Shown piece after piece: positions 12,164 through 36,411 of a DNA stretch of 38,330 nucleotides (within the stretch, counting starts at the first letter, position 1; the number at the start of each line of letters is the position of its first letter). The notes under the pieces are model-generated. The model was given only the letters and a program-made list of their open reading frames with translations, searched no databases and was not told the origin of the DNA. The position numbers and the translations under genes are program-made. The DNA is taken from NCBI GenBank assembly GCA_003562335.1, contig PWVE01000144.1, positions 1 through 38,330 on the forward strand, given 5' to 3'. This DNA is from PVC group bacterium (GTDB lineage Bacteria; Verrucomicrobiota; Kiritimatiellia; SLAD01).

Positions 12164-12172
12164 TCGCTACAG

Positions 12173-12738: not shown

Positions 12739-12767
12739 TTGTGTTTTTTCTGCTCGGTGCATAACAT
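12739..12767 (+). promoter_or_regulatory. Weak candidate promoter for the GGDEF/HD-GYP gene
   Basis: TTGTGT (12739-12744) and TAACAT (12762-12767) are spaced 17 bases apart. The match to consensus is modest (about three and four of six). It is listed because it would place the two hairpins at 12780-12857 inside the transcribed leader. Confidence 0.3.
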
Positions 12768-12779
12768 GCTGCACGGTGG

Positions 12780-12857: not shown

Positions 12858-12887
12858 GAGTCGCTTGATGGGAAAGTGGGGCATAAA

Positions 12888-15453
<2,566 letters not shown>

Positions 15454-15464
<11 letters not shown>

Positions 15465-16038
15465 ACCGGCCGCCCACAGCCACGAAATTGGAGCCGCGTC
15501 CGCGACTGAAAACATCGAAGCCGCCGGACCGATGATGCACCCGTGCAAACAACGCCGCGCGGCCATGCGCCGGTCCCAGCTCCACTTCAAAGGGCATGAA
15601 CAACAGGCGACGGGAGGTCCGTCCTCCGCGCGCCCGCTCGACCTGCGGTGTGGCTGATGCCCACGAGGGACCAATACCCAGCCCGGCATGGAGGCGCCAG
15701 TATTCGGCGCGCGGCCACGGCACCAACCGCAGCATGATGGCCGCATTGACTTCATAATGCTGCTGCAACCCCCAATGACGCGCCACACCTGCTTCGACCG
15801 CCCAGTCCGCGTAGGGCGGCCAGTCCGCCACTTTGCGCGAAACCATAACCGCCCCCACATGACTATCCTTAAACGCCGTGTCGCCACGTATGATGTCGAC
15901 AAAGCGTGTGTCCGTGTAGCGCCCCACGTACAGACTCCAGTGCCACTCATCGCCCAGCCCGGGCGGGTTACCCGCGCGGGCCACCGCCCCATACAGGCTG
16001 CATCCGCAGACCAAGGCCCTTATCGCTAAGCGCCACAT
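15454..16038 (-). CDS. Putative outer-membrane beta-barrel (PagL-like?)
   Basis: A 194-residue protein with a signal peptide (MWRLAIRALVCGCSLYGAVARA, cleavage near 22). The body alternates aromatic and polar residues as in short outer-membrane barrels (WHWSLYVGRYTD, VGAVMVSRKVADWP, EVNAAIMLRLVPWP, LHAGLGIGPSW, MPFEVELGPAH) and ends in an aromatic strand, GSNFVAVGGRFTW. The segment VHHRSGGFDVFSRGRGSNF has an HxS pair near the C-terminus. The lipid A 3-O-deacylase PagL also has a catalytic HxS near its end, so a distant lipid A deacylase is possible, but this is weak. It starts eight bases after the E1 gene and so lies at the end of the dehydrogenase operon. Its 3' end overlaps the opposing c-di-GMP gene by 11 bases. 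Confidence 0.78.
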
Positions 16039-16046
16039 CTATAGAC

Positions 16047-18497
16047 TCAAACCCCCAGTCGGTTCCGCCGCTGATTCTCGTTGGACGATTGGTTGGTGGC
16101 AGGTTGATAACCGGCCAGCGGCACGATCCGCTCGTGAATGGCATCAATCATCCAGCCCGGCTGCGGGAAGAACGTATCTTCCATTTCCGCGCACGGCGTG
16201 ATCCAGTTACGCGAGCCCACCACCACCGGCGGGGCATCCAGATAATCAAATGCATACTCCGTCAACTTGGCCGCAATCGACTCCGCCACCGAACCGCGCT
16301 CGCACGCGTCCGATGCCACCAGCACCCGGCCGGTCTGTTTAACCGATTCAATTAACGGTGCGTAGTCCAACGGATTGATGGACCGGCAATCAAAGACGTC
16401 GGCTTCCATCCCGTGCTTGGCCGACAGCGTCTCCGCCGCTTCCAGCGCGCGGTAGAGCGTGGCCCCGATCGTGATGAGCGTTATATCCTTGCCCTGACGA
16501 CGGCGGGCGGGCGGGCCGAACGGCACCTCATAATAACCCGCAGGTACTTCCGGCTCGAATTGCTCCCCGATGTCATACAGCCGCTGGCTCTCGAAGAAGA
16601 CCACCGGATCGCTGCCGTTGAGGGCCGTGTTCATCATGCCCTTGGCATCGTACGGCGTGGCCGGGAAGACCACTTTCAGGCCGGGAATATGATGGCACAG
16701 CGCGGTCCAGTCCTGCGAGTGTTGGGCCCCGTATTTGGAGCCCACCGATACGCGCAATACCACCGGCATTTCCAGCACACCCGCCGACATGCTCTGCCAC
16801 TTGGCGAGCTGGTTGAAGATTTCGTCGCCGGCCCGGCCCATGAAGTCGCAATACATCAACTCAATCAGCGCGCGCCCGCCTTCCAGTCCGTAGCCGACAC
16901 CGGTACCGACAATGGCCCCTTCCGAGATAGGCGAATTAAAGAGACGATGATACGGCAGCGTCTCGGTCAAGCCGCGGTAGGCGGCAAACGCCCCGCCCCA
17001 GTCACGGTTTTCCTCGCCATACGCGACCAGCGTAGGATCGGTGTGGAACCGGTGCAGAATGGCTTCAAACAACGCGTCGCGGAATTGCAGCATCTTGTTT
17101 TTCGACACCGGCTTGCCGTCTTGATAGGCCGAGCGCACACGTCGTTGCAAGGCCTTGATACGCGGATTTTCATCGTAGGCCAGTAAGGTCTCCGCTGGGC
17201 GATCCGCATACTTCTCGCGCGGCCGGTTGGAGAACATGACCGACTCGATCTCCGCCGCCGGCAGCCGTGGCGAGATTTCAAGATCAACGGCCAAGCGACA
17301 GGCCTTGGTTACGATCTTGCGCACACGTGCCTTGACAGCGGTTACGCCGTCTTCATCAAGCACGCCTGCGGACTGTAGTTGGCCCCCGAACCATTGAATC
17401 GAATCGGCTTGTTGCCACTTGTCCAGCTCGTCCTTGTCGCGATAGGACGAGGCGTCGGACGGGGAGTGACCGGAGTAGCGGTACGTGATCGTTTCCAGCA
17501 ATACCGGACCGCGCCCTTTGTTGATCAAGTCCTGTTTACGCCGAATGGCATCGACCACAGCCAACGGGTTATAGCCGTCCACGCGTTCGGCGTGCATGGC
17601 ATCGGCGTTGAGGCCTGCACCGACGCGGCAGAGGGCGTCGAAGGCCATCGTTTCGCCCGAGGTCTGTCCGCCCATGCCGTAGAAGTTGTTCATGAAGTTG
17701 AAGATGATCGGCAAGCCGCCGCGATGCGGTTTGTCCCACAGGGAGTAGAGCTGGCCCATGGCGGCAAAGTTCATCGCTTCCCAGGTCGGGCCGCAGCCCA
17801 TGGAGGCGTCGCCGATATTGGCGACCACCAGGCCGGGTTGACGGTTGACTTTCTTAAAGAGCGCCGCGCCGGTGGCGATATCCGCCGAGCCGCCGACGAT
17901 AGCGTTGTTGGGATAGATGCCGAACGGCGGGAAGAAAGCGTGCATTGAGCCACCCAACCCGCGATTGAACCCGGTGGCGCGACCAAAGATTTCGGCCAGC
18001 GCACCGTACACGAGAAAATCAATGGCCAGGTCGCGGGCTTCGCCCTCATGCCCTTTCTCCACAATCTTCAGGCACGTGCCGTCCATGTAATCGCGCATGA
18101 TGGTGTCCAACGCATCCGGCTCCAGCTTGCGAATAGCGGACAAGCCTTTGGCCAGAATCTCGCCGTGGGACCGGTGCGACCCGAAAATGTGATCGTCCGG
18201 CGTCAGCAGGAACGCTTGCCCGACCGACGAGGCCTCCTGTCCGATCGACAAGTGCGCCGGCCCTTTATGATCATACTCGATCCCCTCGTAGGCTCCTTCC
18301 GTCTTGATCAGTTGCAGCATCTGCTCAAACTCGCGGATGAGACACATGTCCTCGAAGATGCCGATCAGCGCGGCATCGCCCAGATTTTTACGTTCCTCTT
18401 TAATCGAGGCGGCATACTGGTTCATCGGGATATCGACCGTTTTCAGCGTCCGCTTCTTCCGTTCGACGTCCGGTTCAACAATTAAGGTCTTCGGCAT
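16047..18497 (-). CDS. 2-oxo-acid dehydrogenase E1, fused alpha-beta subunits (TPP-dependent)
   Basis: An 816-residue cytoplasmic enzyme that decarboxylates a 2-oxo acid and hands the acyl group to lipoyl-E2. The N-terminal half (about 40-390) is the alpha subunit: [29 protein letters not shown], and the thiamine-diphosphate motif GDAS (229-232) ending in NN (270-271). The C-terminal half (about 470-790) is the beta subunit: [76 protein letters not shown]. Fusion of both subunits is seen in some bacterial branched-chain or pyruvate-type complexes. The alpha half has a long insertion at about 120-170 compared with usual E1 alpha. AAGGAG precedes the start. Substrate (pyruvate, acetoin or branched-chain 2-oxo acids) cannot be fixed from sequence. 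E3 and E2 are encoded immediately upstream. Confidence 0.93.
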
Positions 18498-22222: not shown

Positions 22223-25200
22223 TTAGAACCACAGCCAGCGGTGCGGGGGCGGTTCGAAGTCCCCTTGGCCTTCCGGCGTGGGCATTAGCATGACGCTGGC
22301 GGGCGCGTCCGGGGATGGCTCCACGACGAGTTGCCGGGTCTGCCGACGGCCGGGGAAAAGACCGAGCCGGGGTCCTAGTTCCCGCACTTCGACCCATTCC
22401 TGATCGGTGTCGACCCGGACCGCCAACAGGTTGAGGCCGCTCTCCTGCAAGGCTGCCTCGGCTTGCGCGAACCAGCGCTCGTCCGGCATGCGCACAAACA
22501 ACAGGGTAAATCCGTCCAGCCGTTCCGCTTCCGCTAAAGCGGCTAGTTCTTCGAAATCCAAGTTGCGGGGGACCGCCGCACGAATAGTGGGCAGCAGGCG
22601 AATCTGATAGTAGCGGGTCAATAGGCGAAGGTCACGGAAGCGCTCCGGTTGTTCGGCTGTGATATGCCCGTCCATCTCATGCACAAACCATGTGGGGGCC
22701 ACCGCCTGCAGCTGCATGGCAAAGGGGGTAAGGGCCGCTATCATTTCCTTGTCACGCCACGGTGTGTCCTGCGGCCTGAAAGCGGCAATCTGCACGGGCA
22801 ACGGGCCGCCGGCCAGGCGCCGGATAACCGCCTCGGCCACACCCAGCTGCGGGGCCCAAGGCGAAAGGCCCCACCACCCGAGTTCAACCGATTCGGGGAC
22901 CCGCATCGGGGCACCGAACGCGGGGGCACCATCAATATAGCCCATGGCCCCGTCACCGCGCACTTCCAAGCGCAGGGTGGTGACATCGCCGGGGTGTTGC
23001 CATGACCGGGTTAGATTATTCAACAGGCGTTCCCCTTGCCAAACCTGGAGATAGAGTCGGCCTTCTGAATCAAAACCAAACCGCACCATGCCCGCCTGGC
23101 TGCGACGCGCGTACAGCCAGAACATCCCGCGCGCCTCGCCAATTTCGGCCTCAATGATTCCGCTGTGCATGAGGTCCGATTGGGCCAGCCGCAAACTGGC
23201 CTCGGCTGCGGAAGGCTCGGCGGCCAGTAGGTAGTCCGCATCCTCTTCATCTGTCAGATCGCCGATGGCCTCCCAGTTGTTGGAGAGTTGTCCGTGCCGG
23301 AATACTTCCATGGCGACACGGTGGCGCGGGAGCAGCCGGGAAAACGATCCGGGGCGTTCCGATGCTTGCTCCCGCTGCGCTTCGTCCTCAACGAACGGCA
23401 TGAGCAGCCAAGCCTCGGGGTGCAGCAGGATCTCGTGCTGCCGCAATATATCCGCGAAATGCGACCGCAACCCCGGGCGGCGCCCGATGGCCAGCATCTG
23501 TTGCAGGTTATGGCGACGCGACGCCGGGCGGCGCAGCAAGCTGTGCAGCAAGGCCAACGCTTCCAAGTCCTCCGGATTCTGTTCCACCACGCGCCGGACC
23601 AGGGTACCGGCTTCGCTGCGGCGGTTTTGTCCGATCAAGAGCTGGGCTTGGGCCAGCAGGATATCGGGATTACCCGGGAACAGGCGCGCATACAGTTCCA
23701 GCAAGGCCCCGGCCTCTTCCGGTTGGTCCGCCCGGCGATCCAGCAGGCGGGCGGTCTCGGCCGCCAGGGGAATCTGTCCGGGATTCCGTTCCAGGCTCTC
23801 ACGATACTGCCGGATTGCTTCATCATACTGGTTTAGGCGCAAATAGATATCGCCCCGCAAACGCGGCGGAGTGGCGTTGTGCGGTTCCAGTTCGCTCCAG
23901 CGCCCCCATATGAGCAAGGCCTGCTCCAAATCGCCACGTTCGAGCGCGGCATGTCCCTGGGACCGCAATAACTGGTGACGACTAACCTCGCCCCAGTCTT
24001 CAATCTCGGCATCGCCGCCCGTCAACGTGTGGATGTCGGGCGGTTCCAACTCGGCCAAATCGAGCCGGGTCATGTGCGCCAACCGCAGGCGGTAGGCATC
24101 CATCTCCGTTATCATGGCCTGATAGGTGTGCGGGGCAAAGGCTACTTGCAAGTTGGGCAGGCTTTGCAAGAGCGCCGATAGCGTGCTTTCCCGCTCCCAG
24201 GAAGTGGGTAGCCGCACCAGCAATTCCAGTTCGTGTTCGTCCAAGGCTTGCGACAAGGACAAGAGCCAGGCCGTGATACGGGCCAGCGGGGGGTCGCCCC
24301 TGATTTCAGTCAAGTTGCAAAGCAACCCATCGGCACCCTGTTCCGCTGCTGCGGCCGCCAATTGTTGCGGTAATCCGTCCTCCTGACCGGCCAAGCCTTC
24401 CAACACGATTTCGGGCGTGAACCGCAGGTCATACGTATGGGCCAGATCCCGAAACAGCGTGGGGTCCCAGCCCGGCTGTTCCCCTTGCGTCCGGGTTGCC
24501 ACCCGCAGCCAAGGCGGCGCAAAATGGGTGTGTTGTACTGCGTGATGCTGTAACCAGGCCGCCAGGCGCTGGTCACGCGCGGCCACCGGTGTCCACGCCA
24601 CCACCCGATTGACAAACGGCTCGACTTCGAGCCGCGACAAGCGCACGGTCGCCGCCCCCGGTTCCGGATCCCAAACACTTAGGCCCAGCATCCCCGGCAT
24701 GGTGGCGCCTCTGAGCGTCAGTACTTCGCTGAACAGGGCCCGGCCATTCACGCGCACGAAGAAATGGCGTCCGCGCAGGTGTAGTTCGAGTTCAAACGGC
24801 TGGTTGGGCGCGATGTTGATCTTCTCACTGCCGAGCGTAAAAGCCGGCAACCCGACGTGCTTCTGCCGCAGCCATACATTGCCGCGGTGATCAATGCCCA
24901 GGTAGACATGCCGTTCGCCGTCGGGGGCCGCCCGCAGATAAAATCCCACCTGCCCCTGTTCCAGTTGCAACCGGAACCGACTGCGAAAATCCTGAAAGAG
25001 GTCACTGCCGTTGATCCATACCTTGGCCCCGGTCGTTTCAGGCGTGGCGCGAAGCTGGATCAGCCGCGCGTCCTGCTCGAATACGCCCCAGTCCTGCAAC
25101 CAGAGATGCGGATTATCGCGCGCCTCGGCCGCTTGGAAGCCCTGTTGACGCGGCCAGGCATTGTCCAGCCGCTCCAATAGTTCGTCGCCGGTCCAGTGAC

Positions 25201-26176
25201 TCTGCACGAGTAAGCGGCTAAGCCGACGAGGATCACTGTGACGCGTGTTCAGCGCCGTGAACCCGTGAATGAAGCCGAGGTCGTAAAACTCGCCGACCAA
25301 TTCCATGTTGATACGGCGGCTTAACACGGCGCGTTCGTCGTATTGACCGTAGTCGCCGTACGGAAACGCAAACGCGCGCGGGGCCTGGCCGGCCCGTTGC
25401 GTAATCAAGTCACGCGTGAATATATGATCGGCGCGCAGGCGCTCGCGAAACGCCTGGGGCTCCTCGAACCGCATTTCCTCGGTTAGCCAGCGCGGGGCCG
25501 TCATAAAATTCTGCAGTTGGCCTTCACTGTCGGCTACCACCTGCTCAAAACCGTGGTGGCTCTGGGCCCCGGCCTCCCAGTTTCCGCTGCGCAACATGGT
25601 ACGGATATACGGCCAACGCAACGCCGCCGGATCCTCGTCCTCGATCGGTTTGGTCCACAAGAACATCACCGCCGGCCAACCGGCGCGGGCCAATACCGAG
25701 CGCACGTCAAAGTAGGACGACTTGCGGGAATGGTCGAAGGTCAGCAGAATGGCTTTACGCGGCAGGGGTTTCCCCTCGGCATACAGTGCGTGGACTTCCT
25801 CCAGGGTAATCGGGTTGTATCCGGCCGCGCGCAGGGTTTCCAGGTGTTGCCGGAAGCGCTCGGGCGAAACCTCGCGCGGACTGGTGGACACCCCTTCATA
25901 GGCGAGGGCCACGAAGGCGTATTGATCGTGTACGCCCCGATCCTGCGGGCGGTCCGTCAGGCGCCGCATAATGAAATAATGCAACGGCACACCCCACGCG
26001 ATGACGAGGGACAGAATGAACAAGAACATCAACCACGCCTGACGATAGTTGGCTTTTAGCACGGCTACCCGGGCGGGGACCACCGGCGGGGCGTTACGGG
26101 CTTGCGCCGCGCGGCGCTGACCGCGCGGGCGGCGCGGCGTGGGGGGCGTGTGCGGACGGGTATCCGGCGTGCTCAT
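22223..26176 (-). CDS. Membrane-anchored NodB-like (PgaB-like) multidomain protein with TPRs and two sandwich-barrel modules
   Basis: A 1317-residue protein. The start at 26176 overlaps the GT2 stop (ATGA); a 21-codon upstream extension is rejected. Order: cytoplasmic Pro/Arg-rich tail (1-45); membrane segment (about 47-68); NodB-type deacetylase-like domain (about 85-340) with PITLEEVHAL, AILLTFDHS, SGNWEAGAQSHHGF and AFAFPYGDYGQYDE; beta-sandwich (about 350-520, WGVFEQDARLIQLRA...VWINGSDLF); degenerate TIM-barrel-like region (about 525-715); TPRs (about 735-885); second beta-sandwich (about 955-1125, GWWGLSPWAPQ); second barrel-like region (about 1130-1275). PgaB also joins a deacetylase to a barrel. 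The usual metal ligands are altered: FDD is FDH (D148, H149), and HxxxH is HHGFE (H207, H208). It probably acts in the periplasm on the polymer made by the adjacent GT2; enzymatic activity is doubtful. Confidence 0.85.
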   Translation of the reverse strand: MSTPDTRPHTPPTPRRPRGQRRAAQARNAPPVVPARVAVLKANYRQAWLMFLFILSLVIAWGVPLHYFIMRRLTDRPQDRGVHDQYAFVALAYEGVSTSPREVSPERFRQHLETLRAAGYNPITLEEVHALYAEGKPLPRKAILLTFDHSRKSSYFDVRSVLARAGWPAVMFLWTKPIEDEDPAALRWPYIRTMLRSGNWEAGAQSHHGFEQVVADSEGQLQNFMTAPRWLTEEMRFEEPQAFRERLRADHIFTRDLITQRAGQAPRAFAFPYGDYGQYDERAVLSRRINMELVGEFYDLGFIHGFTALNTRHSDPRRLSRLLVQSHWTGDELLERLDNAWPRQQGFQAAEARDNPHLWLQDWGVFEQDARLIQLRATPETTGAKVWINGSDLFQDFRSRFRLQLEQGQVGFYLRAAPDGERHVYLGIDHRGNVWLRQKHVGLPAFTLGSEKINIAPNQPFELELHLRGRHFFVRVNGRALFSEVLTLRGATMPGMLGLSVWDPEPGAATVRLSRLEVEPFVNRVVAWTPVAARDQRLAAWLQHHAVQHTHFAPPWLRVATRTQGEQPGWDPTLFRDLAHTYDLRFTPEIVLEGLAGQEDGLPQQLAAAAAEQGADGLLCNLTEIRGDPPLARITAWLLSLSQALDEHELELLVRLPTSWERESTLSALLQSLPNLQVAFAPHTYQAMITEMDAYRLRLAHMTRLDLAELEPPDIHTLTGGDAEIEDWGEVSRHQLLRSQGHAALERGDLEQALLIWGRWSELEPHNATPPRLRGDIYLRLNQYDEAIRQYRESLERNPGQIPLAAETARLLDRRADQPEEAGALLELYARLFPGNPDILLAQAQLLIGQNRRSEAGTLVRRVVEQNPEDLEALALLHSLLRRPASRRHNLQQMLAIGRRPGLRSHFADILRQHEILLHPEAWLLMPFVEDEAQREQASERPGSFSRLLPRHRVAMEVFRHGQLSNNWEAIGDLTDEEDADYLLAAEPSAAEASLRLAQSDLMHSGIIEAEIGEARGMFWLYARRSQAGMVRFGFDSEGRLYLQVWQGERLLNNLTRSWQHPGDVTTLRLEVRGDGAMGYIDGAPAFGAPMRVPESVELGWWGLSPWAPQLGVAEAVIRRLAGGPLPVQIAAFRPQDTPWRDKEMIAALTPFAMQLQAVAPTWFVHEMDGHITAEQPERFRDLRLLTRYYQIRLLPTIRAAVPRNLDFEELAALAEAERLDGFTLLFVRMPDERWFAQAEAALQESGLNLLAVRVDTDQEWVEVRELGPRLGLFPGRRQTRQLVVEPSPDAPASVMLMPTPEGQGDFEPPPHRWLWF

Positions 26177-27651
26177 GAGCTTCCCCGTGTGCCCCAGCCT
26201 TTGGTGGCCATGGTGATGATGGCGTAGTACACCTGCCAACTATAAAACCCGATATACGTCAAGGTGAACACAAACCCCGCCCACCAATGCGTCCGGCCCG
26301 TTTTTTGCAGGTGGTACAAGGCCCAGACAAACGTGATAATCGATATCCCGAAGATATAGGACGTGGTAACCAATCCTTCCTGTAAGGGTTTAATGATCAG
26401 GGCCTGTACCATGATATACGGCTCGATGATGGGCAGCAACATCATCGCGTACCAGGAAAGGGCCGGTACGGGATGCTTGCGCCACATAAACGGACTGGCC
26501 GTCACGATCCCGCGCATGGAAGACCGCATCCAACGGGCCTGTTGCCGGGTATAGACCCCCCATTTCTCCGGGGCAATGGTCGTCGCCAATGCCTCGCTAT
26601 CGTAAAGCACCTGATAGTCGCGCAAAACCAAGTTCGTCAAACTACGGTCATCACCGTAGTTCCCCGACTGGCCAAACACCTTTTCCTTCATCCACTCGTC
26701 CATCACGTGCAACACACAGGTCCGCCGGTAAGCGGAAAAACAGCCGGGCAAACAACTGACGGTGCCGTGTACGCTTTCCGCCGCTTTCATGATGCGGTAG
26801 GAGAAGAAATAACGCACGTCCTGCATCTTGGTCAGCACGTTCCGGCCGGCATTCTCCACATCCGTGTGGCCGGCGATGCCGGCCACGGTGGGGTCAATAA
26901 AGCCTTGGACCACCTTCTCCACGGCGCCGGGCAGGAGAAACGTGTCGGAGTCCACAAAAACCAGCACTTCGCTGCGGGCCAGTAAACTGGAGTAGGCCAT
27001 GCCGTAGCAAAGGCCGCGGTTATGCTCGAAATCAACCACCACCAATTTCGGGTGCGCGGCCTGGGCGCGCAGCATTTCCTCCAGCGTGTTGTCGGTGGAA
27101 CCGTCGTTGACCACAATCACTTCCCGCAGGTCGTCGGGGTAGCCTTCCGCGTAAATCCGGTCGATTGACCGGCCGATAGAGGTTTCTTCGTTCATACACG
27201 GGATCAATACGCTCACGGAGGGATGATGCCCCACCTGCGGTGGCGGCGCATAAAACGCAGCCAATATGAAACGCGACACGATGAAGAGGCCCACGATCAA
27301 TGAGTACACATTAACGGCCGGCGCATAGTAATAGTGCTCGATATTGTTGATTTGGAAGTAGACGGCAAACGCCAGCAAAAACGTGCTGATAAGTGCCAGC
27401 ACCGCCACCAGCAGGCGTGGCGGGTTGCGATAGAGGCGCTTGATGTGGGCTTCGGGGGATTCCTGGGCCTCGGGCGCGCGCGGCGGCGGGACCTGAAATC
27501 CTTCCACGGCCATGGCGCGATGGCAAAAGGAGCAAACCGTGGGGGGCGGCGAGTCGATCACCCGCACGGATATGCGGCAATGCGGACAACGACACACCGT
27601 GCCCGTGCGTTGGGTATCCGAAGAGGAGTGGGTTTCGTAAGCCGCCATCAT
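26173..27651 (-). CDS. Processive GT2 glycosyltransferase (hyaluronan/chitin-synthase-like) with N-terminal zinc ribbon
   Basis: A 492-residue membrane synthase. The N-terminal zinc ribbon has CPHC (22-25) and CSFC (40-43). Membrane segments lie at about 80-98 and 113-133. The GT-A domain (about 145-375) has SVSVLIPCMNEE, VIVVNDGSTDNT, the metal/nucleotide motif DSD (234-236), the acceptor motif GDDR (333-336) and the processivity motif QQARW (370-374). Three to four C-terminal membrane helices follow (about 400-420, 430-447, 457-478). CLPGCFSAYRR and GDDRSLTN resemble HasA, NodC and chitin synthases, so the product may be an amino-sugar polymer. The zinc ribbon is not a normal part of these enzymes. 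GGGAA stands seven bases before the first of two ATGs. The gene is four bases from its upstream neighbour and overlaps the next by four. Confidence 0.92.
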   Translation of the reverse strand: MMAAYETHSSSDTQRTGTVCRCPHCRISVRVIDSPPPTVCSFCHRAMAVEGFQVPPPRAPEAQESPEAHIKRLYRNPPRLLVAVLALISTFLLAFAVYFQINNIEHYYYAPAVNVYSLIVGLFIVSRFILAAFYAPPPQVGHHPSVSVLIPCMNEETSIGRSIDRIYAEGYPDDLREVIVVNDGSTDNTLEEMLRAQAAHPKLVVVDFEHNRGLCYGMAYSSLLARSEVLVFVDSDTFLLPGAVEKVVQGFIDPTVAGIAGHTDVENAGRNVLTKMQDVRYFFSYRIMKAAESVHGTVSCLPGCFSAYRRTCVLHVMDEWMKEKVFGQSGNYGDDRSLTNLVLRDYQVLYDSEALATTIAPEKWGVYTRQQARWMRSSMRGIVTASPFMWRKHPVPALSWYAMMLLPIIEPYIMVQALIIKPLQEGLVTTSYIFGISIITFVWALYHLQKTGRTHWWAGFVFTLTYIGFYSWQVYYAIITMATKGWGTRGSS

Positions 27652-27655
27652 TAAT

Positions 27656-30061
27656 TTATTCCCGCAACCGTATAATCGTGTTTCCTAACGCATTCCAATC
27701 CGCATCGTCGTCGAGGTCGATGTCATCCGCCAACGCCACATTCAGCGGCTGCACCCGGCGCGGCCCCGGCAGCAACCCCACGAACGGTGCGATCTCACGG
27801 AGTCGCGCGCGCGTGCCGGCGGGCTCCCACAGTAGCAGATTAATGGCCAGCTCGCGCTCCACCGCCTCGGCTTCCGCCGCGCGCAGCCATTCCGGTGGCG
27901 GCATTTTGTACACGGGTATGGTAAAGCCGTCCAGCCGGTCGCGGGCCGCCACCCGGGAGGCTTCGTCCCAATCGAATGTAGTCTCCGCCCGTAACCGGAC
28001 CACCGGCATCAGCCGTGCGCGGTGAAAGCGGGCCAGTAACCGCAGTTCCTGGTCGTCGGCATAGGCATTCCGTTGCCAGCGCCCATCGTCCGCTTCCGCG
28101 TACCAATCCGGCATAGCGGCCACCGTCCCGTTCATTAAGCGCCGCAACCGTTCCAGCATGGCGCCGGACCGTGGCTCGTCAGGCGGGCGCTCGGTATAGT
28201 CCCACCACAGCAAGCGGGCGGCCAACGGTCCACCGGCGGCCCGGTGAATGTTTACGGCTGCATATCCCGGTTCCGGTGCCCACGGGGCCAGTCCCCACCA
28301 GCCAAGCCCCATATCCCGCGGGATGGATAACGGGGAGTGGAAGGCGGGCCGGCCATCAATGTAGCTAAAGATACCGTCGCCCCGCACTTCCAGCCGCAGG
28401 CGCGCCACGTCGGTGTCCTGCGCCCACAGGCGTGATTCGTTCAAGTGCAGCTGACCATTGATCCAAACCTGCTGGTAAAGGTTGCCCGGCTCATCAAATC
28501 CGAAGCGGACCATATTGCCTTCCCCCCGGCGGGCGTACATCCAAAAATAGCCCCGGGTGCCTTCGATATCGGCCTCGATAAAGCCGCTGGGCATGGCGTC
28601 GGACTGTTCCAACCGCAAATAGGCTTCGGTCTGTGTCGGATCCGCCCCCAGCACCAAGGCCCCGTCATCGTCCCACATTTGGTCGCGCGACGACGCCCAA
28701 CTGCGCGACAACCGGCCAATTCCGAAATCCTCCACCGCCACCTCGGTGCGCGGAAGCAAGGACTGAAACGTTTCCCGGACATACGCTTCCGGCGCCCGGA
28801 ACGCCACGTCATCAATGTACGCCAGCAGGACCCACGACTCAGGCCGCGTCAATAGGTGATGATCCAAAATCACCCGCGCGAGCAAAGGATCCGCGCCCGG
28901 GCGATACCCGACCGCCAGGATTTCCTGCAAATTGGCAAAGCGGTCCACCGTGGTTTCCAGGAGGGTATGGCGCAGCACCAACGCCCGCAAATTTTCGGCG
29001 TCCCGCACCAGCACGCGGTCAATCAACCGCCCGGCCTCCTGATAGCGGCGGCGACGAATCAGCCATTCCGCTTTCGCCAACACAATTTCGGGATGCTCGG
29101 GGAACAATCGTTCATAATGGTTCAGCAACTCCCGGGACTTGTCCGGACGTTCCATCTCCACATCCAACAGTCGCGCCAACCGCACCATTAGCCGAATTTG
29201 GCCGGGTTGTATGGCCAGGCTACGCCGGTATTTTTCAACGGCTTCATCCAGTTGTTGTTGCCGCAAGTAGGTGTCGCCGATCAACGCCACCGGTTCCGGG
29301 TTCTCGGGTGCCAACGCGGCCCATTCCCGCCACACTTCTATCGCGCGCTCATAATCGCCGGCATTGAACGCGAGCCGCCCCTCCGTACGCAGGGCACGCT
29401 GCCGCAATTCCGGCTGCAAGGCATGGTCCTCCACCTCACGGCCACCGGTAAACTCATAGTACATGGCCAATTCAATATCGCGCGCAACGCCCGGTTCCAA
29501 TTCATCGTGCGGCGCGTCGAACACACGACACATGACCGATAAGGTGGCCCCGCTATACGCCGTGTACCCGTGCACAACGATGTACCAGTCGCCGGAGGGC
29601 GGGCGATCCAGCATGATCTGCTCATCGTTACCGCGCACATAGGGACGGGCATCGAACAACGTGGGCGTGGGGGCCGCCCGGTGCCGCACATACAGGTCGG
29701 CATCGCCGGAGCCCCCTTCCAGAGAAATCTCAAGCCGTTCCGTGTTGGGAGGCACCCGCCAGACGAACAGGGAAGAGGTCCCCTGCCGGCCAGCCAGCCC
29801 CTCTAATTCGTCACCACACGTGAGCCGCCGCGGAACCACATAGTCCGGCAGGTCAAAGCGGACGGTGGGCGCATCGTCCACCCGCCGCCAGATGGGCGGG
29901 GGCGGCGTGAACCGGTCGTCGGCCTCCGCCGAACCGGCTGTTTGCGCCCCGGCTACCAGCGCCGCGCACCCAAGCCCCACGCACACATACCGCGCACGGG
30001 AGGATGCGACACGCGCCGTGCCGCACCTGCCACCCCGCGTCCACGATATTGGACTTCTCAT
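27656..30061 (-). CDS. Secreted PPC-TPR-sandwich-barrel protein, paralogue of the NodB-like protein's C-terminal half
   Basis: 801 residues from ATG 30061 (a GTG two codons earlier is possible). A long signal peptide is likely (hydrophobic VCVGLGCAALVAGAQTAGSAEA, about 27-47). Domains are PPC-type beta-sandwich (about 95-180: FVWRVPPNTERLEISLEGG, GDADLYVRH, DARPYVRGNDE, DWYIVVHGYTAYSGATLSV), TPRs (about 218-370), lectin-like beta-sandwich (about 440-612, LGWWGLAPWAPEPG) and barrel-like region (about 615-768). From residue 216 to 768 it aligns domain by domain with residues 732-1285 of the NodB-like protein; shared motifs include RFGFDxxGxLY, LRLEVRGDG, YIDGxPAF and RLDGFT. PPC domains normally hang on secreted proteases and help bind polymers; none is encoded here. 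It is probably a periplasmic or surface scaffold of the polysaccharide machine. Confidence 0.85.
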   Translation of the reverse strand: MRSPISWTRGGRCGTARVASSRARYVCVGLGCAALVAGAQTAGSAEADDRFTPPPPIWRRVDDAPTVRFDLPDYVVPRRLTCGDELEGLAGRQGTSSLFVWRVPPNTERLEISLEGGSGDADLYVRHRAAPTPTLFDARPYVRGNDEQIMLDRPPSGDWYIVVHGYTAYSGATLSVMCRVFDAPHDELEPGVARDIELAMYYEFTGGREVEDHALQPELRQRALRTEGRLAFNAGDYERAIEVWREWAALAPENPEPVALIGDTYLRQQQLDEAVEKYRRSLAIQPGQIRLMVRLARLLDVEMERPDKSRELLNHYERLFPEHPEIVLAKAEWLIRRRRYQEAGRLIDRVLVRDAENLRALVLRHTLLETTVDRFANLQEILAVGYRPGADPLLARVILDHHLLTRPESWVLLAYIDDVAFRAPEAYVRETFQSLLPRTEVAVEDFGIGRLSRSWASSRDQMWDDDGALVLGADPTQTEAYLRLEQSDAMPSGFIEADIEGTRGYFWMYARRGEGNMVRFGFDEPGNLYQQVWINGQLHLNESRLWAQDTDVARLRLEVRGDGIFSYIDGRPAFHSPLSIPRDMGLGWWGLAPWAPEPGYAAVNIHRAAGGPLAARLLWWDYTERPPDEPRSGAMLERLRRLMNGTVAAMPDWYAEADDGRWQRNAYADDQELRLLARFHRARLMPVVRLRAETTFDWDEASRVAARDRLDGFTIPVYKMPPPEWLRAAEAEAVERELAINLLLWEPAGTRARLREIAPFVGLLPGPRRVQPLNVALADDIDLDDDADWNALGNTIIRLRE

Positions 30062-30066
30062 TCCCA

Positions 30067-32379
30067 CTACTCTCCTGCTACCGCCCGGTGCTGAACACGT
30101 CTGAGCGCCGGGAAAATTTCGTTGGCAACTGTCGTATTCAAATCAAACACCACCACGCCGGCCACCCCTTCTTCAATGGCCGCCTGCGCTTGGCGCAACG
30201 TTGCGCCCGGCCCCAATTGGGTGTGCGACGCCGTGACCCCCAACCCGGCCCAGACACGACCCGCCGCCCCGGGCAAGGCCAACTGACGCGCCGTCCACTG
30301 CTTGAGTTCCGCCTCACGTTCGGTATAGCTCATGGGCACCACAAAGTCCACCCATTCGTTTGCCAGCCAACGAGGCCAATCCTGGCCAAGCTGCGCCTTA
30401 ACCGTGTTCACGTCCGGCCACACGGCGGCCGAGAGGTTCACGTCAGGATACCGCTCGGCCATGGCGGCCGACACCGCTTCCACAAATTGACTGATGGCGT
30501 CGGCACGCCACGCCACAAACGCCTCACGGGTCGCCCCCGACAAGTCGGGCCAGTTTGGCAGGGCGCGACCATAGTGCGCCTCAAAACGCGCCTGACATTC
30601 AGGACCATAACAGTAGTCCGCGTCCGGATAGCGGACATAGTCTAAGTGCAATCCCTGCACCCCGTGCGTCGCGGCCAAGGCCAGTACCCGTTCCAACTCC
30701 GACTCCCGATTTGCCGGCAAGGCCGGGCACAACCACGTGGTAGCCGTCCCATCGGCACCGGTTTGCAGTCTCCCGTCACGGCGATACCCGGCCAGCGTTT
30801 GGGTATCGGCCGATTCAACATTGAAGACAATCGGCCACACGTGCAGCTTGATCCCGGCTTCCTGGGCCGTACGCACGGCCCGGGACGACAGGGTCCCGCC
30901 GTAACGGACGTAGACAAAGGCATCGGTAAATCCCGTCGCCCGCAATTCCGCCCACGTCCGCGCCCAATCCCCGGGATAGAGGCCGCGCCCGGAATGGTCC
31001 CATATGCCCAAAGCCACGTCGGCCGGCCACACGGTTTCAATCCTGTCGTCTGCGGCGTGGGCAGCCACCCATTCGGCATAGCGGTCCCAGGCCGTACCGG
31101 CTGAACCGCGTTCAAGCGCGCGTTGGGTCGCGGCCTGCGCCCGCTGCACGGCGGGTCCATTGGCGATCGTCGTTTGGGCGGCGAGGGTTTCGGCCTTGCG
31201 TTTGACGGCGGCCAAGGCGGCCGACGGCAGGTACCGGTCCAGCATGAACGCCAAGGCGCGCAGCCGGGCGGCATCGTCGTCCCGGCCCAGCAGATGACTG
31301 AACCAAACCCCGTGCGGCGTCGCGATAATAGCCGGTTCAGATTGCGGACGGCCGTTGGTATCCGCCCAAAAAGCCAAGACCTCCGCCTCGTCGTGAGCCG
31401 GGCGGATGGGCAGGATGTGGGGGGCCGATTGGACCACCCGCGCGGGGCCCTCCCAAGCCGACATGTCGGTAAACGCCCATTGATGAAGCGGATTGGCAGG
31501 TCCGGCCGCCCGCCAGACACCAGGCGTTACACCCGCGGCGGCGGCCAAATCGGTGTCCGCACTGTAACACACCCATAAAGCCCCGCCCTGCCGCACATAC
31601 GAAAGCAATGCACGCCGCAACGGGGAAGCGGGTTGCGGGTTATAGGGTAGGATCACCACCTTGAACGGGCGCAAATCCGCCGCCCGCAGCCCCTCCTCAT
31701 CCAGCGGGATAGCCGGCTGATCCAGCCGGGACAGGTCCGCCAGCCAGCGCTCAGCGTTATTGCGCGCAAACGGGCGTTCGTCCGCCAACGGCACCGATTT
31801 GGCACTGGGCATGACGACCGCGATACGCGCGCGCCGGGCTTGCACCCCATGCAAATGAACCGTGCCGGAACCTTCCCCGCTGCTCCAGGGCGAAAGCCGA
31901 AAACGATTCACAGAATTCCAACCGGCCACGGCCCCCTCACGCTCAAAGGAGCTGAATGGGACCCAGGCGCGTTGCCGCCCCGAGCGTACCGGTAACGCTG
32001 CCGCATACCATCCCGGCCCGCTGCGCACGTACCAAGTTAATCCGCGAAACGCGTCAGCCGGTTCCAACGTGTAGGTCCATTCCAGTCCGTGCACGCCGTC
32101 GGCGGAAAAAGAGCGGGGTACCGGTACATCCCATACGTGCCGGTCGACACCGGACGGGAACGGGCAGGGAAACGAAACGCCATCAGCTGCGACGGTCGGC
32201 GCGGGATTTGACGGTAATGGCTGCCAGCGCGCCTCCATGTCCAGTTGCCAAACCGGATCGTCCGCGGCCAACGGCAGTGCGACCAGCGCCAGCCCGATCA
32301 CGATGGCCTGAATCCCCCCGGCGGTGGTCGCTGACCGCACGCCGCGGTGCGGGCACTCCCCCGGCCTACTCCCAAACAT
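30067..32379 (-). CDS. Secreted GHL10-type glycoside hydrolase-like protein
   Basis: 770 residues with a signal segment (about 23-39, IQAIVIGLALVALPLAAD). The N-terminal beta-sandwich (about 75-180) resembles a carbohydrate-binding module. A Rossmann/GATase-like region (about 183-385, RIAVVMPSAKSVPL, FKVVILPYNP, YVRQGGALWVCYS) recalls the trimerisation domain of some glycosidases. The C-terminal domain (about 450-755) is a TIM barrel of the GHL10 (DUF187, YngK-like) type: GIWDHSGRGLYPGDWARTW, GIKLHVWPIVFN, the signature GLHLDYVRYP with D580, LSAAVWPDV and VDFVVPMSYT. GHL10 members are thought to hydrolyse or bind bacterial polysaccharides. Its start overlaps the upstream small-protein gene by 14 bases, and the next gene begins five bases after its stop. 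It may trim or release the polymer made by the locus. Confidence 0.88.
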   Translation of the reverse strand: MFGSRPGECPHRGVRSATTAGGIQAIVIGLALVALPLAADDPVWQLDMEARWQPLPSNPAPTVAADGVSFPCPFPSGVDRHVWDVPVPRSFSADGVHGLEWTYTLEPADAFRGLTWYVRSGPGWYAAALPVRSGRQRAWVPFSSFEREGAVAGWNSVNRFRLSPWSSGEGSGTVHLHGVQARRARIAVVMPSAKSVPLADERPFARNNAERWLADLSRLDQPAIPLDEEGLRAADLRPFKVVILPYNPQPASPLRRALLSYVRQGGALWVCYSADTDLAAAAGVTPGVWRAAGPANPLHQWAFTDMSAWEGPARVVQSAPHILPIRPAHDEAEVLAFWADTNGRPQSEPAIIATPHGVWFSHLLGRDDDAARLRALAFMLDRYLPSAALAAVKRKAETLAAQTTIANGPAVQRAQAATQRALERGSAGTAWDRYAEWVAAHAADDRIETVWPADVALGIWDHSGRGLYPGDWARTWAELRATGFTDAFVYVRYGGTLSSRAVRTAQEAGIKLHVWPIVFNVESADTQTLAGYRRDGRLQTGADGTATTWLCPALPANRESELERVLALAATHGVQGLHLDYVRYPDADYCYGPECQARFEAHYGRALPNWPDLSGATREAFVAWRADAISQFVEAVSAAMAERYPDVNLSAAVWPDVNTVKAQLGQDWPRWLANEWVDFVVPMSYTEREAELKQWTARQLALPGAAGRVWAGLGVTASHTQLGPGATLRQAQAAIEEGVAGVVVFDLNTTVANEIFPALRRVQHRAVAGE

Positions 32380-32689
32380 ACAGGTCGCCCTTGGGTTCTA
32401 CCGGATCTTCCGGTACGCCACCGGCCCGGGTCACTTGTCGGAACAGCGATCCGCCCGTAGCGGCGGCAGGCTTGGATTCAGGGGTCGGCTTGGGAGGTGC
32501 CACCGGAGGTTTTTCCGGGATCGGCTCTGCCGGTGGCGGCCTGAACGTGAGGGTTTCCTCCTCAGACTGGGCCGCTGCAATAATTTTACGCCGGTTAACA
32601 GAGTTCCACAAAGCCGCCAAGGCAAAAATAATGGCGAGTATCGTGCCGATTACCATGATCGGCGCTATGAGATTTGATAAAGCGTCCAT
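32366..32689 (-). CDS. Small membrane protein with Pro-rich arm, first gene of the polysaccharide unit
   Basis: 107 residues: one membrane segment (about 7-30, LIAPIMVIGTILAIIFALAALW), a basic stop (NRRK), a Pro/Glu/Lys-rich flexible arm (about 50-75) and a short conserved-looking tail ending GDLYVWE. No family is recognised. AGGAGG at 32701-32706 lies 11 bases before the ATG, slightly far. The gene overlaps the GHL10 gene by 14 bases. Small membrane proteins such as PgaD support the synthase in related systems, but the topology here (one helix, long arm) differs, so that role is only a guess. Confidence 0.78.
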   Translation of the reverse strand: MDALSNLIAPIMVIGTILAIIFALAALWNSVNRRKIIAAAQSEEETLTFRPPPAEPIPEKPPVAPPKPTPESKPAAATGGSLFRQVTRAGGVPEDPVEPKGDLYVWE

Positions 32690-32716
32690 GCAACGATTGA
32701 TCCTCCTATGGCCCCT

Positions 32717-32744
32717 ATAATAACGACCATACGGAGAAATGCAA
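32717..32744 (-). promoter_or_regulatory. Candidate sigma70 promoter for the polysaccharide unit
   Basis: Reading the minus strand, TTGCAT (32739-32744) and TATTAT (32717-32722) are 16 bases apart. They match four and five of six consensus bases. This would start transcription about 20 bases before the small membrane protein gene, separating the five-gene unit from hflC, whose stop lies just upstream. Confidence 0.42.
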
Positions 32745-32752
32745 CCCAGGCA

Positions 32753-33826
32753 CTAATAATCAAGCACTTTAAACCACTCGAACAGCGGGCTGTCGGTGCC
32801 TAGGATAAGCGTGCCATTTTCGCCCAGTGCCGTTTCATAGGCCTGCAACGTGCGCAGGAAACGGAAGAATTCGGGATCGGCATTATAGGCCTCGGCATAA
32901 ATACCAATGGACTCCGCCTCGGCCTGGCCGCGAATCCGCTCGGCCCGCTCCACGGCTTCACTGCTGATGGTAGCCAACTCGCGCTCCATCTCGCCCAAGC
33001 GCTGTTCAGCGCGTTGCTGCCCGAGGGACCGGAACCCGGCCGATATCTTTTGCAGCTCCGCGTTCATCTGGCGATAGACGTTTTCCTCGATCGCCGAGGT
33101 ATAATTGACCTGCTTGATCAGAATGTCCTCCAGGTGAATGCCCAGTCCGATTTCCTCGAGCCGCTCGCGCGCCCGCTCGAGGATACCGGCAATCACCACC
33201 GGGCGCCCGGCCAGATAGGTGCCGTCGGGCGCCGTATCCAACGGCGGCATTTCGCCGCCCATGGTGGTCAAGTCCAAATCGTCGGGCAGCTCCTCGTCGT
33301 CTTCCGTCAGCGTCACCGGGATCTCCTCATCCCGCTCCAGAATACGGTTGCTGCTGCGCACGACCTCGTACAGGTCGTATTGGCCGATCTCATTACGTAC
33401 CGCCCCCTCAATAATGCCGTCCAGCCGGTTTAACGCCAGGTTGGTGGAACCCCCAATCGATTCCAAAAACGCCCGCGCATCGCGAATCCGCCAACGGGCG
33501 GTGACATCGACAATAATGGCACGGCGATCCTTGGTATAAATGGTTCGTTCCTGGCCGTCCCAGCGCAGCAGCCGCTTATCAAAGGTATGCACTTGTTGCA
33601 CAAACGGTCGCTTGAAATGCAGACCCGCCTCGGTAATCGGCTCACCGCGGATTGCGCCGAACTGTGTAATGATCGCTTGTTCCCATTCGTGGACCACGAA
33701 CAAAGAGTTCACCAACAAGAAAACCAGCGCGGCCGCCACAATCAACGCCATCACGGGCGTTGAGCCGCCAGTCGGCCCGCGCGATGACGAGGCCCAGGGA
33801 TTAATCCATGTCCAAACATTCTTCAT
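32753..33826 (-). CDS. hflC: HflC-type SPFH/prohibitin membrane protein
   Basis: 357 residues. It has an N-terminal cytoplasmic stretch (1-24), a membrane segment (about 25-45) and an SPFH/band-7 domain (about 45-250: VVHEWEQAIITQFGAIRGEPITEAGLHFKRPFVQQVHTFDKRLLRWDG). A helical coiled region (EQRLGEMERELATISSEAVERAERIRGQAEAES) ends in the HflC signature NADPEFFRFLRTLQAYE. HflK and HflC form a large periplasmic cage that restrains the FtsH protease. Residues about 163-208 are an acidic insertion (TEDDEELPDDLDLTT) within the SPFH domain, not usual for HflC. The gene starts two bases after the hflK stop, with GGAGG upstream. Confidence 0.92.
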   Translation of the reverse strand: MKNVWTWINPWASSSRGPTGGSTPVMALIVAAALVFLLVNSLFVVHEWEQAIITQFGAIRGEPITEAGLHFKRPFVQQVHTFDKRLLRWDGQERTIYTKDRRAIIVDVTARWRIRDARAFLESIGGSTNLALNRLDGIIEGAVRNEIGQYDLYEVVRSSNRILERDEEIPVTLTEDDEELPDDLDLTTMGGEMPPLDTAPDGTYLAGRPVVIAGILERARERLEEIGLGIHLEDILIKQVNYTSAIEENVYRQMNAELQKISAGFRSLGQQRAEQRLGEMERELATISSEAVERAERIRGQAEAESIGIYAEAYNADPEFFRFLRTLQAYETALGENGTLILGTDSPLFEWFKVLDY

Positions 33827-33828
33827 GA

Positions 33829-34749
33829 TTACAGTCCTCCGCGCATGTTCAGGTGCGGCAGAATACCTTCGCGGTCCGCATCCAAAATGATTACTTCTTT
33901 CAACTGCGGCAACCGTTCCTCCAGTGTTTCCAGATAGAGCCGGCGCCGCGTCACTTCCGGCGACTCGCGGTAGGCGGTCAACATGTCCGTAAACCGTTGG
34001 GCCTCGCCCCGCGCCACATTAACACGGCGCTGACGGAACCCTTCCGCTTCCAAAATCACGCGCTGCGCTTCACCGCGCGCACGCGGCACCCGCTCCTGAT
34101 ATTGGCGGGAAGCCTCTTCGAAAAAGCGCACGGCATCCTGCTCCGCACGGTTTAAATCGTTGAACGCGTCCAACACGGGCCGTGGCGGATCGACGAACAA
34201 GAGGTTCACTTCATTGATGCGAATGCCCATGCGGAACTGGTCCGCTTGTTGCTGGATGAGTTCGCGAACTCGCTGCTGAATCTCTGCCCGGCCGACGGTG
34301 AGGATCAGGATACTGGCGCGGTCCCCCATGATCTCGCGCATCACCGACTGGGCAATGTCGCGTAGCGTGTTGATCGGATCCTCCACTTCGAAGATGAACT
34401 GGGCCGGGTCTTCCCGGCTGAATTGAACGTCCCAGCCGGCCAGCACCATATTCAGGTCGCCGGTCAACATGGAATGCTCGTCCTGCCCCCGGCGCTCACC
34501 AAATTGCTGGACGTCCACAATACGCGTGGGTACTTTAAGAACCCGGTCGATGCCGAACGGCAACTTGAGATGCAAGCCCGGCGGCGACGTCTTCACATGC
34601 CGTCCAAACCGCAGCAACAAGCCTTCCTGTTCCGGCGCAATCTGGTAAAACATCGACAGCGCACTGAACACCAACAACACCGCCACGACGCCGGCCACGA
34701 TGGCCTTGACCGGTATTTCAATGACTTTTCCTTCTATTTCAATTTGCAT
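33829..34749 (-). CDS. hflK: HflK-type SPFH/prohibitin membrane protein
   Basis: 306 residues, short for HflK because the long glycine-rich N-terminal tail is missing. A membrane segment (about 14-35) is followed by the SPFH domain with YQIAPEQEGLLLRFGRHVKTSPPGLHLKLPFGIDRV, which is the HflK pattern, then VDVQQFGERR, TLRDIAQSVMREIMGDR, QQADQFRMGIRINEVNL and a coiled-coil region rich in Arg/Glu (QRVPRARGEAQRVILEAEGF type). AAAGGAAG precedes the ATG. It forms the HflKC complex with the next gene product. The palindromic repeat copy 2 lies in its upstream region, 28 bases from the start. Confidence 0.92.
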   Translation of the reverse strand: MQIEIEGKVIEIPVKAIVAGVVAVLLVFSALSMFYQIAPEQEGLLLRFGRHVKTSPPGLHLKLPFGIDRVLKVPTRIVDVQQFGERRGQDEHSMLTGDLNMVLAGWDVQFSREDPAQFIFEVEDPINTLRDIAQSVMREIMGDRASILILTVGRAEIQQRVRELIQQQADQFRMGIRINEVNLLFVDPPRPVLDAFNDLNRAEQDAVRFFEEASRQYQERVPRARGEAQRVILEAEGFRQRRVNVARGEAQRFTDMLTAYRESPEVTRRRLYLETLEERLPQLKEVIILDADREGILPHLNMRGGL

Positions 34750-34896: not shown

Positions 34897-36318
34897 TTAC
34901 TGCGGTACCGCCAGTGTACCATTATGGAATTCGATAACATGGCCTTTTTCAACCAGCCACGTCAACGGTTGCAACAGCTCGGCTAGTTTGGCCGGATCGT
35001 CGCCCGCAGCGGGGCGGAGCTCGGCGATTAATTCGGCGCGCGTGCCGCCGGGATGTGCCCGCAGCCATTCCAATATTTCGCGGATGACCGGAATCACCCC
35101 ACCCGGATCCACCGGGTGCGGGGCCACGGCAGTGACAAACAACGAGTGGTTCGCGGTCTGAAACACGTGCAGCTTCATCCGCTTGAAGGCACCGCGCAAC
35201 GCGCGCACCAATGTGGCCGGATAGCGTTGTTCACGCGCCCAGGCTGCCCGCAGTAACGCCAACAGCGCAGGCTCCCGTATTTCCCGCGATAACGGGCCGG
35301 GCAACACGGCTTTATGCACGCGCTTAAGATCCGTCGGCAACACGTGCTGCTCGATGTAGGCGCGCGCCTCTTTTTCTGTGCAAGGTTCTGCCGCAGCGTC
35401 GCCAGCGGCCCGTTCAGGGCGTAACCGGTAAACCGTTACCGTGCGCTGCGCTTCCTTCCACGCCTCAATGGCTTCCGGATCGCGTACCGTCTCGATGTGC
35501 CGCCGGTAATCGTCCAACGACAAATGACCAAAACGGGCCTGATGCAAATGCTGGACCGCCGCCGTATAGTCATGATGATTCGGCGGTCCCAGCCACTCAC
35601 CGCTCAGCCCGCACCGGGCCACGCAAACAAACTGGCCGGCCGGCGGCTCTTTCTGGACGGTTTCGCATTCGAAATAGTGTTCCACTCCGCGCGCCAACAC
35701 GTCCCGGCGCGCCTGCTCCACATCGTAATAGACCAAACCCGTCAAGCGGGATTGATAGAACGACAAGGCATACGCCCCGCCCCGTTTCCGATGCGCTTCA
35801 AAGCGTACGGCGTGCCATTGCGGCCGATTCAAAAACAGATGCGCCAACTCGGGCAAAGGAAACGCGTGCTGCGCGGCCCGCAGATCGGCCGCCATCGTCG
35901 CCAGCTTTTCCTGGTCGGGAATAAAGGAAACTTGAATAGGTAACCGTTGCGGCGCTTCCCGCTGGTGCCGACGCGTGTCCGGGCGAGGCCCCGGCGAACG
36001 CGACCGGTCCGGGCGCCGGTCAGCACCGGGACGGCGACCCGATTGGTCAGCGGTGGGTTTGCGTGTGCGGTTGCGATCACGACCATACGGGTCCTTGGCT
36101 GCGCGACGATCTCCTTGGCGTGGGCGGGGCGCACCGCCGCGATCCCGTCGACCCGCTGAACGCCCGCGGTCGTCCCGGGTATCCCCTCCGCTATGATCGC
36201 GATAGGGATCCGCGCTCGGGGGTTGCCGCGCCCAGTCCGGCACAAAATTCAGGTCCAGCAGCAGGGCTGCAGGGTCGCCGCCGGGGCGGCTGTTTTCAGG
36301 CGTGTGCGCGTCGGTCAT
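34897..36318 (-). CDS. Hypothetical protein with long Arg/Asp-rich low-complexity region
   Basis: 473 residues from the ATG at 36318; the frame runs 23 codons further but the N-terminus MTDAHTPENSRPGGDPAALLLDLNFVPDWAR looks natural. No ribosome site is clear. Residues about 38-125 are a disordered Arg/Asp/Gly/Pro region (RGRSAGRRDRGGAPRPRQGD), like the RNA-contacting tails of helicases and ribosomal factors. The globular part (about 127-473) includes LPIQVSFIPDQEKLATMAADL, CETVQKEPPAGQFVCVARCGLSGEW, GPPNHHDYTAAVQHLH, an alpha-helical middle and a winged-helix-like C-terminus (IREILEWLRAHPGGTRAELIAEL). No named family is recognised. Nucleic-acid binding is an inference from charge and the winged-helix-like end. 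It is transcribed divergently from the next gene, 93 bases apart. Confidence 0.82.
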   Translation of the reverse strand: MTDAHTPENSRPGGDPAALLLDLNFVPDWARQPPSADPYRDHSGGDTRDDRGRSAGRRDRGGAPRPRQGDRRAAKDPYGRDRNRTRKPTADQSGRRPGADRRPDRSRSPGPRPDTRRHQREAPQRLPIQVSFIPDQEKLATMAADLRAAQHAFPLPELAHLFLNRPQWHAVRFEAHRKRGGAYALSFYQSRLTGLVYYDVEQARRDVLARGVEHYFECETVQKEPPAGQFVCVARCGLSGEWLGPPNHHDYTAAVQHLHQARFGHLSLDDYRRHIETVRDPEAIEAWKEAQRTVTVYRLRPERAAGDAAAEPCTEKEARAYIEQHVLPTDLKRVHKAVLPGPLSREIREPALLALLRAAWAREQRYPATLVRALRGAFKRMKLHVFQTANHSLFVTAVAPHPVDPGGVIPVIREILEWLRAHPGGTRAELIAELRPAAGDDPAKLAELLQPLTWLVEKGHVIEFHNGTLAVPQ

Positions 36319-36411
36319 AAATCGTATTGGGTGTGTGACAACAATCGTGTAGGATCGCCAATGAACTAAACAGCTTATTCGCCCCAAGGTGATTAATCAA
36401 TAGGAAACGTT

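Follow-up and report, generated by a model that had tools for sequence, protein, structure and literature searches.

The operon and its surroundings

We asked whether five tightly packed genes in a Kiritimatiellia MAG encode a single machine for exopolysaccharide assembly and, if so, how that machine relates to known synthase-dependent systems. The genes lie in a stretch of 38,330 nucleotides (the window), one of the 242 contigs (C191) that make up a 2.66 Mb genome. The original prediction, made from the DNA alone, grouped them into one operon, and all five open reading frames are present on the - strand in the order SM, GHL10, PPC-TPR, GT2, DAC:

32366..32689, - strand: SM, small protein, 107 aa (orthologue alignment; membrane segment read from the sequence)
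30067..32379, - strand: GHL10-type exported TIM-barrel protein with an N-terminal accessory region, 770 aa (Pfam GHL10, 4e-11)
27656..30067, - strand: PPC-TPR protein, 803 aa (Pfam PPC, 2e-12, and TPR)
26173..27651, - strand: GT2, processive family-2 synthase of the hyaluronan/chitin-synthase type, 492 aa (Pfam GT2/Chitin_synth_2, ~1e-25 to 2e-25)
22223..26176, - strand: DAC, NodB/CBM66-like/TPR protein with an inner-membrane anchor (ATG start at 26176; reading frame open to TTG 26239)

Neighbouring genes overlap by 14 bases (SM/GHL10), 1 base (GHL10/PPC-TPR) and 4 bases (GT2/DAC), and a 4-base gap separates PPC-TPR from GT2. The likeliest start of DAC is ATG 26176, where the DAC start and the GT2 stop share the letters ATGA. 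Pfam backed each of the domains named in the prediction, but the shared candidate promoter found no such backing, as a consensus scan of 32300-33000 gave no sigma-70 match on the - strand. Immediately upstream, in the same orientation, are homologues of HflC and HflK (window 32753-34749), an arrangement not seen in the relatives examined. Window positions 34897-36387 hold a 496-aa Arg/Asp-rich ORF with no NCBIfam match.

GT2 and DAC are the conserved core

Homologues of GT2 (E<=1e-60) were detected in 35 of 116 genomes of the class; the named relatives with GT2 are Kiritimatiellae MAGs and Kiritimatiellaeota bacterium B1221. DAC homologues were present in 40/116, among them every GT2-positive genome (35/35). 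DAC lies directly downstream of GT2 on the same strand in 40 of the 45 GT2 copies read in context; the other five comprise two copies at contig ends, two with DAC adjacent in reverse order and one that has diverged. The order SM-GHL10-TPR-GT2-DAC recurs in two other genomes (G050 and G094; loci L032 and L033). In G001, where SM was not called, the genes are spread over separate contigs; G096 has the order, again with no SM call, and G102, G059 and G039 have it without GHL10. Because the eight GT2s of these genomes and the window form one supported clade (100/99) in the GT2 tree, the extra genes (SM, GHL10 and PPC-TPR) mark a GT2 subclade, while the core consists of GT2 and DAC. The expectation that the five genes would co-occur in the same order was borne out in part: GT2 and DAC are adjacent almost everywhere, but the full order is confined to the subclade. 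The claim that the genes belong to one machine gains from the GT2-NodB adjacency in nearly every copy and from the recurrence of the five-gene order in other genomes; the genes were not scattered among relatives, and GT2 did not fall within the clade of a known locus.

A draw of 388 genomes from the phylum gave 37 matches, all in the same class, a weak statement on absence elsewhere. We disregarded one neighbourhood-clustering "family" (c8), whose members seem to be reading frames that run antisense to GT2. A cluster of receiver, KaiC-like ATPase and ExeA-like (XrtA/PEP-CTERM-associated) ATPase genes adjoins many GT2-DAC loci, usually in divergent orientation (L032 2411-4748, L039, L041, L047 and others).

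GT2 is a processive synthase of its own clade

To place the synthase we examined its motifs, family scores and phylogeny. The features read were:

27523..27594, - strand: N-terminal cytosolic zinc-ribbon-like CxxC...CxxC (clade alignment)
26941..26952, - strand: DxD motif, DSDT (comparison with hyaluronan synthase)
26644..26655, - strand: catalytic-base motif, GDDR (aligned with GDDR of hyaluronan synthase)
26530..26544, - strand: Q-x-x-R-W motif, QQARW (processive GT2 motif)
26182..26196, - strand: C-terminal motif, WGTRG (aligned with WGTRG of hyaluronan synthase)

All of the processive motifs (DxD, GDDR-type, QxxRW and WGTRG-like) are thus present. They are shared with the GT2s of hyaluronan synthase, chitin synthase and NodC, which also give the best PDB and Pfam matches, and the closest solved relatives are hyaluronan synthases (PDB, E=5e-23). 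In contrast to these enzymes, GT2 has a zinc ribbon at its N-terminus, branches as a clade of its own and has a near-constant NodB anchor as neighbour. The two CxxC motifs are found in nearly all clade members, and a PilZ domain replaces the zinc ribbon in GT2s of the sister branch and Paenibacillus (L098, L077, L072). GT2 scored 123.8 bits for the PgaC family (TIGR03937; cut-off 422) and 138.9 bits, higher than its PgaC score, for the NodC family (TIGR04242; cut-off 550), well below either cut-off. The tree places it outside the known cellulose or Nod locus clade and separate from NodC. Judged by the GT2 family, the polymer probably contains GlcNAc. Recoding through an in-frame TGA in GT2 relatives was considered and rejected for the five copies inspected, a set that left out copies with TAA or several stops: these five end in WGTR-stop, and the aligner had overrun the natural stop.

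Architecture of DAC and the three accessory proteins

DAC is a long, modular protein:

25982..26038, - strand: single N-terminal membrane anchor (hydrophobic stretch read from the sequence)
25115..25906, - strand: PgaB-type NodB domain with a degenerate active site (alignment to E. coli PgaB)
24590..25102, - strand: CBM66-like jelly roll 1 (AF2 model, Foldseek)
24062..24571, - strand: alpha/beta partial barrel 1 (AF2)
23366..23989, - strand: TPR array (Pfam, AF2, Foldseek)
22781..23317, - strand: CBM66-like jelly roll 2, internal duplicate (hhalign 99% vs jelly roll 1)
22370..22753, - strand: partial barrel 2, internal duplicate (hhalign 98.8% vs barrel 1)

The NodB domain matches Polysacc_deac_1 (Pfam, 4e-10), and DAC scores 106 bits for the PgaB family TIGR03938 against a cut-off of 322. 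The C-terminal 959 aa were modelled by AF2 (pLDDT 87.5) as a CBM66-like jelly roll, a partial barrel, the TPR array, a second jelly roll and a second partial barrel, and CBM66 was the best structural match of this model in Foldseek. An identity of the half barrels as PgaB C-terminal domain or as GHL10 was dismissed, as neither gave a profile match.

A relationship missed in the original prediction joins PPC-TPR to DAC: it is paralogous to the C-terminal half of that protein (~42% identity to DAC 736-1308). PPC-TPR repeats the unit of TPR, CBM66-like domain and half-barrel and carries a PPC domain where DAC has its anchor and NodB.

SM has one predicted N-terminal TM segment, a Pro-rich tail and a conserved TFRP...LFRxV...YxWE pattern. 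Orthologues occur in L032, L033, L039, L040 and L041, with invariant columns that include the C-terminal WE, and no Pfam or NCBIfam family matched. The proposed analogy to PgaD finds no support in a protein with a single predicted TM, a conserved C-terminal YxWE and no family match, encoded away from GT2.

The GHL10 gene, which had been taken as a dedicated part, stands beside the operon in only some relatives (L032, L033, L054 and L078). Because 98/116 genomes carry GHL10 relatives, usually at a distance from GT2 and regardless of its presence, the protein is not diagnostic of the system, and we rejected it as an obligate subunit. Its H578, D580, Y581 and R583 are >=90% conserved among homologues; the motif is:

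30622..30648, - strand: GHL10 motif, HLDYVRYPD (homologue conservation)

A candidate outer-membrane channel is encoded in trans

The original prediction saw no porin and proposed a search for an export partner elsewhere in the genome. That search found a candidate channel of 1,186 aa on another contig (G000:C202:10255-13815, G000 being the genome of the window), with TPRs, NodB and a predicted 16-strand barrel. A protein of this kind (~1,100-1,280 aa, with TPRs, NodB and a strand-rich C-terminal region) adjoins GT2-DAC in many relatives, and most full-length copies end in an aromatic residue. In L032/L093 the orthologue shares a locus with the full five-gene operon, so that synthase, periplasmic TPR protein and outer-membrane barrel occur together. 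The C202 protein is 48% identical to the L032 copy and has its best match (55%) in L039; orthology is the ground for assigning it to this operon and not to the other system of the genome, on C142.

The channel protein was found in 36/116 genomes. GT2 and channel occur together in 31 genomes, GT2 only in 4, channel only in 5 and neither in 76, an association with a Fisher value of 1e-18 that treats related genomes as independent and serves as a guide only. The four GT2-only genomes represent a divergent GT2 branch, and neighbourhood clustering revealed divergent channel homologues in its loci. Five genomes carry anchor-like and channel genes with no GT2 match. The channel query also matches DAC, which inflates its neighbour counts, and those counts were left out.

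An AF2 model from an alignment of 27 members (mean pLDDT 85.7) shows NodB, four helices and 16 strands. Foldseek matched it to E. coli PgaB (4e-12, NodB part), BcsC (6e-10), the PgaA barrel (2e-9, TMt 0.69) and PelBC (1e-8). Comparison of the barrel with PgaA and BcsC by sequence gave no detectable similarity; we therefore rejected sequence kinship and keep a match at the level of fold. The L034 channel homologue scores 49.5 bits against 367 for the PgaA family TIGR03939. In PgaA, the TPRs adjacent to the porin are where the deacetylase domain of PgaB binds (PMC9384988), and the point of NodB fusion in the channel, the TPR region beside the barrel, matches this place. The fusion unites in one chain what in PgaA/PgaB are separate, interacting proteins. 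SGNH and MBOAT genes adjoin the channel gene in several relatives, which suggests O-acylation at those loci.

Loss of catalytic residues in the NodB domains

Active-site residues named for E. coli PgaB are H55, D114 and D115 (PMC7112194), and metal binding in CE4 enzymes needs the second Asp of TFDD and the two His of motif 2 (PMC5855634). In an alignment to E. coli PgaB, 38/38 DAC proteins of the class lack H55, D115, H184 and H189, the general acid of PgaB together with its three metal ligands, and have D or E at D114; many members, though not all, carry a His near the H184 position. The window DAC has E, D, H, Q and F at H55, D114, D115, H184 and H189, with H55 replaced by E at LAYEGV (25889-25906), D115 by H at TFDH (25730-25741), and a motif 2 of QSHHGFE (25544-25564). 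Two DAC homologues from Patescibacteria (L035, L036) retain all five residues. Retention in the channel NodB is 25/31 for H55, 27/31 for D115, 24/31 for H184 and only 5/31 for H189; the C202 channel has lost all four, and the losses are of a similar kind in a relative of the same genus. The CE4 His-His-Asp metal triad is thus found in 0/38 anchors and is absent from the channel of this genome.

One missing ligand is no proof of inactivity, since the metal Asp is missing from MurNAc deacetylases (PMC5855634). Here all ligands are lost with variable replacements, which argues for a pseudoenzyme family, and non-enzymatic cell-wall roles are known for NodB-domain proteins (PMC4505593); a metal site built from unusual ligands, for example with the TFDH histidine, is conceivable. 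Because the catalytic residues are lost in both, the anchor NodB and the NodB of the cognate porin in this genome are probably binding scaffolds and not deacetylases, so the original reading of the anchor as a functional deacetylase lacks support. The channel NodB of other lineages, which keeps most catalytic residues, may deacetylate. With NodB catalysis lost by degrees, intact at one end (Patescibacteria) and dead at the other (Kiritimatiellia), the part that a deacetylase fold plays in export beyond deacetylation becomes directly testable.

A model for assembly and export, and its alternatives

We consider it likely that the operon encodes one half, that of the inner membrane and periplasm, of a synthase-dependent machine for exopolysaccharide assembly and export in part of the Kiritimatiellia, best read as a variant of such systems with a new architecture. 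GT2 would polymerise a sugar nucleotide and extrude the chain across the inner membrane; its likeliest substrate is UDP-GlcNAc, by itself or combined with a second sugar. DAC, possibly in a physical complex with GT2, would bind the emerging chain through its degenerate, probably non-catalytic NodB fold. In the subclade of the window the soluble paralogue PPC-TPR would extend the periplasmic scaffold, binding and guiding the chain, and the GHL10 barrel may trim the glycan or clear peptidoglycan. The chain would leave through the C202-type TPR-NodB-16-strand-barrel channel. In other lineages the channel NodB may deacetylate it and the products of nearby SGNH/MBOAT genes may O-acetylate it. A bolder version, which we find possible but somewhat doubtful, is that NodB folds were repurposed at both membranes as non-catalytic chain-binding stations (the synthase-side anchor and the channel fusion) and that the zinc ribbon replaced PilZ (c-di-GMP) control, defining a distinct class of secretion system. 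We found no description of this system among open-licence papers.

The proposed echo of the Pga functions stands for the processive GT2, the PgaB-type NodB fold and the TPR scaffold, all shared with PgaABCD of E. coli, and finds no support for PgaD or for an active deacetylase; the predicted 16-strand outer-membrane barrel adds a resemblance at the level of fold. Unlike PgaABCD, the system has degenerate NodB domains that are doubled (inner-membrane anchor and channel fusion), no GH153, no PgaD, a GT2 outside the PgaC family, and CBM66-like/TPR additions. The locus could be a divergent PNAG (pgaABCD) member with active deacetylation, its NodB using non-standard metal ligands. NodB is PgaB-type by both profile and structure, a TPR and barrel partner exists, and the channel NodB keeps H55, D114, D115 and H184 in many relatives; however, GT2 reaches 124 bits against the PgaC cut-off of 422 and NodC scores higher, the GHL13/GH153 domain (PF14883) is absent from the genome, and the four lost anchor residues and the rarity of H189 in channels make this improbable. 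The TPR array followed by a barrel and the Foldseek matches also recall the BcsC (cellulose) and PelB (Pel) channels, but here NodB lies between TPRs and barrel, and the barrel has no sequence similarity to that of BcsC (PelB was compared by fold alone).

Another alternative overlaps the export machine favoured above, from which it departs solely by specifying a polymer: GT2 would alternate UDP-GlcNAc and UDP-uronic acid to make a hyaluronan/glycosaminoglycan-like product, explaining the GAG-like exopolymers of Kiritimatiellales. Pontiella strains make N-sulfated, hexosamine-containing GAG-like EPS by enzymes that are unknown (PMC7356697), hyaluronan synthases are the closest solved GT2 relatives, and in Zambryskibacteria L036 GT2 is immediately preceded by a gene resembling nucleotide-sugar dehydrogenases. 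The window operon, however, has no sugar-nucleotide dehydrogenase in or beside it, the NodC and chitin-synthase families score similarly for GT2, and the Pontiella cluster named in PMC7356697 differs in composition, so that we rate this naming as rather unlikely and treat the Pontiella polymers as a lead only. A locus for carbohydrate sensing or polysaccharide uptake, not export, would accommodate the CBM66-like modules and the GH-like barrel, and cultured Kiritimatiellales degrade polysaccharides (PMC7356697). It is very hard to reconcile with a core gene that is a processive GT2 with all motifs and a channel that resembles polysaccharide secretion barrels, and no SusCD-like or other transporter was noticed. 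The export reading offers a candidate machine and channel, spanning many families of the class, for the glycosaminoglycan-like exopolymers of Kiritimatiellales.

Related loci

GT2-NodB gene pairs also occur on a Paenibacillus cellulositrophicus plasmid (L098) and in Pacebacteria/Zambryskibacteria (L035, L036), and no channel or TPR part was seen in these three loci. The Paenibacillus NodB is homologous to DAC (1e-26), but its GT2 has PilZ and not the zinc ribbon. The cluster at L098 4580-12210 consists of NodB, PilZ-GT2, NodB and GH18, and the active site of the second NodB appears changed by eye. The GT2-NodB module therefore extends beyond Kiritimatiellia.

The genome of the window itself holds further related loci. 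A second, divergent GT2-DAC system lies at G000:C142 (L069) 8025-16944, together with an SGNH gene, a facing TPR-NodB-barrel gene and KaiC-like and ExeA-like genes. Another contig, G000:C23 (L070), lacks GT2 but encodes at 2-6695 a further DAC-like protein, the third in this genome, along with a TPR-NodB partner in which the five PgaB-like active-site residues appear intact.
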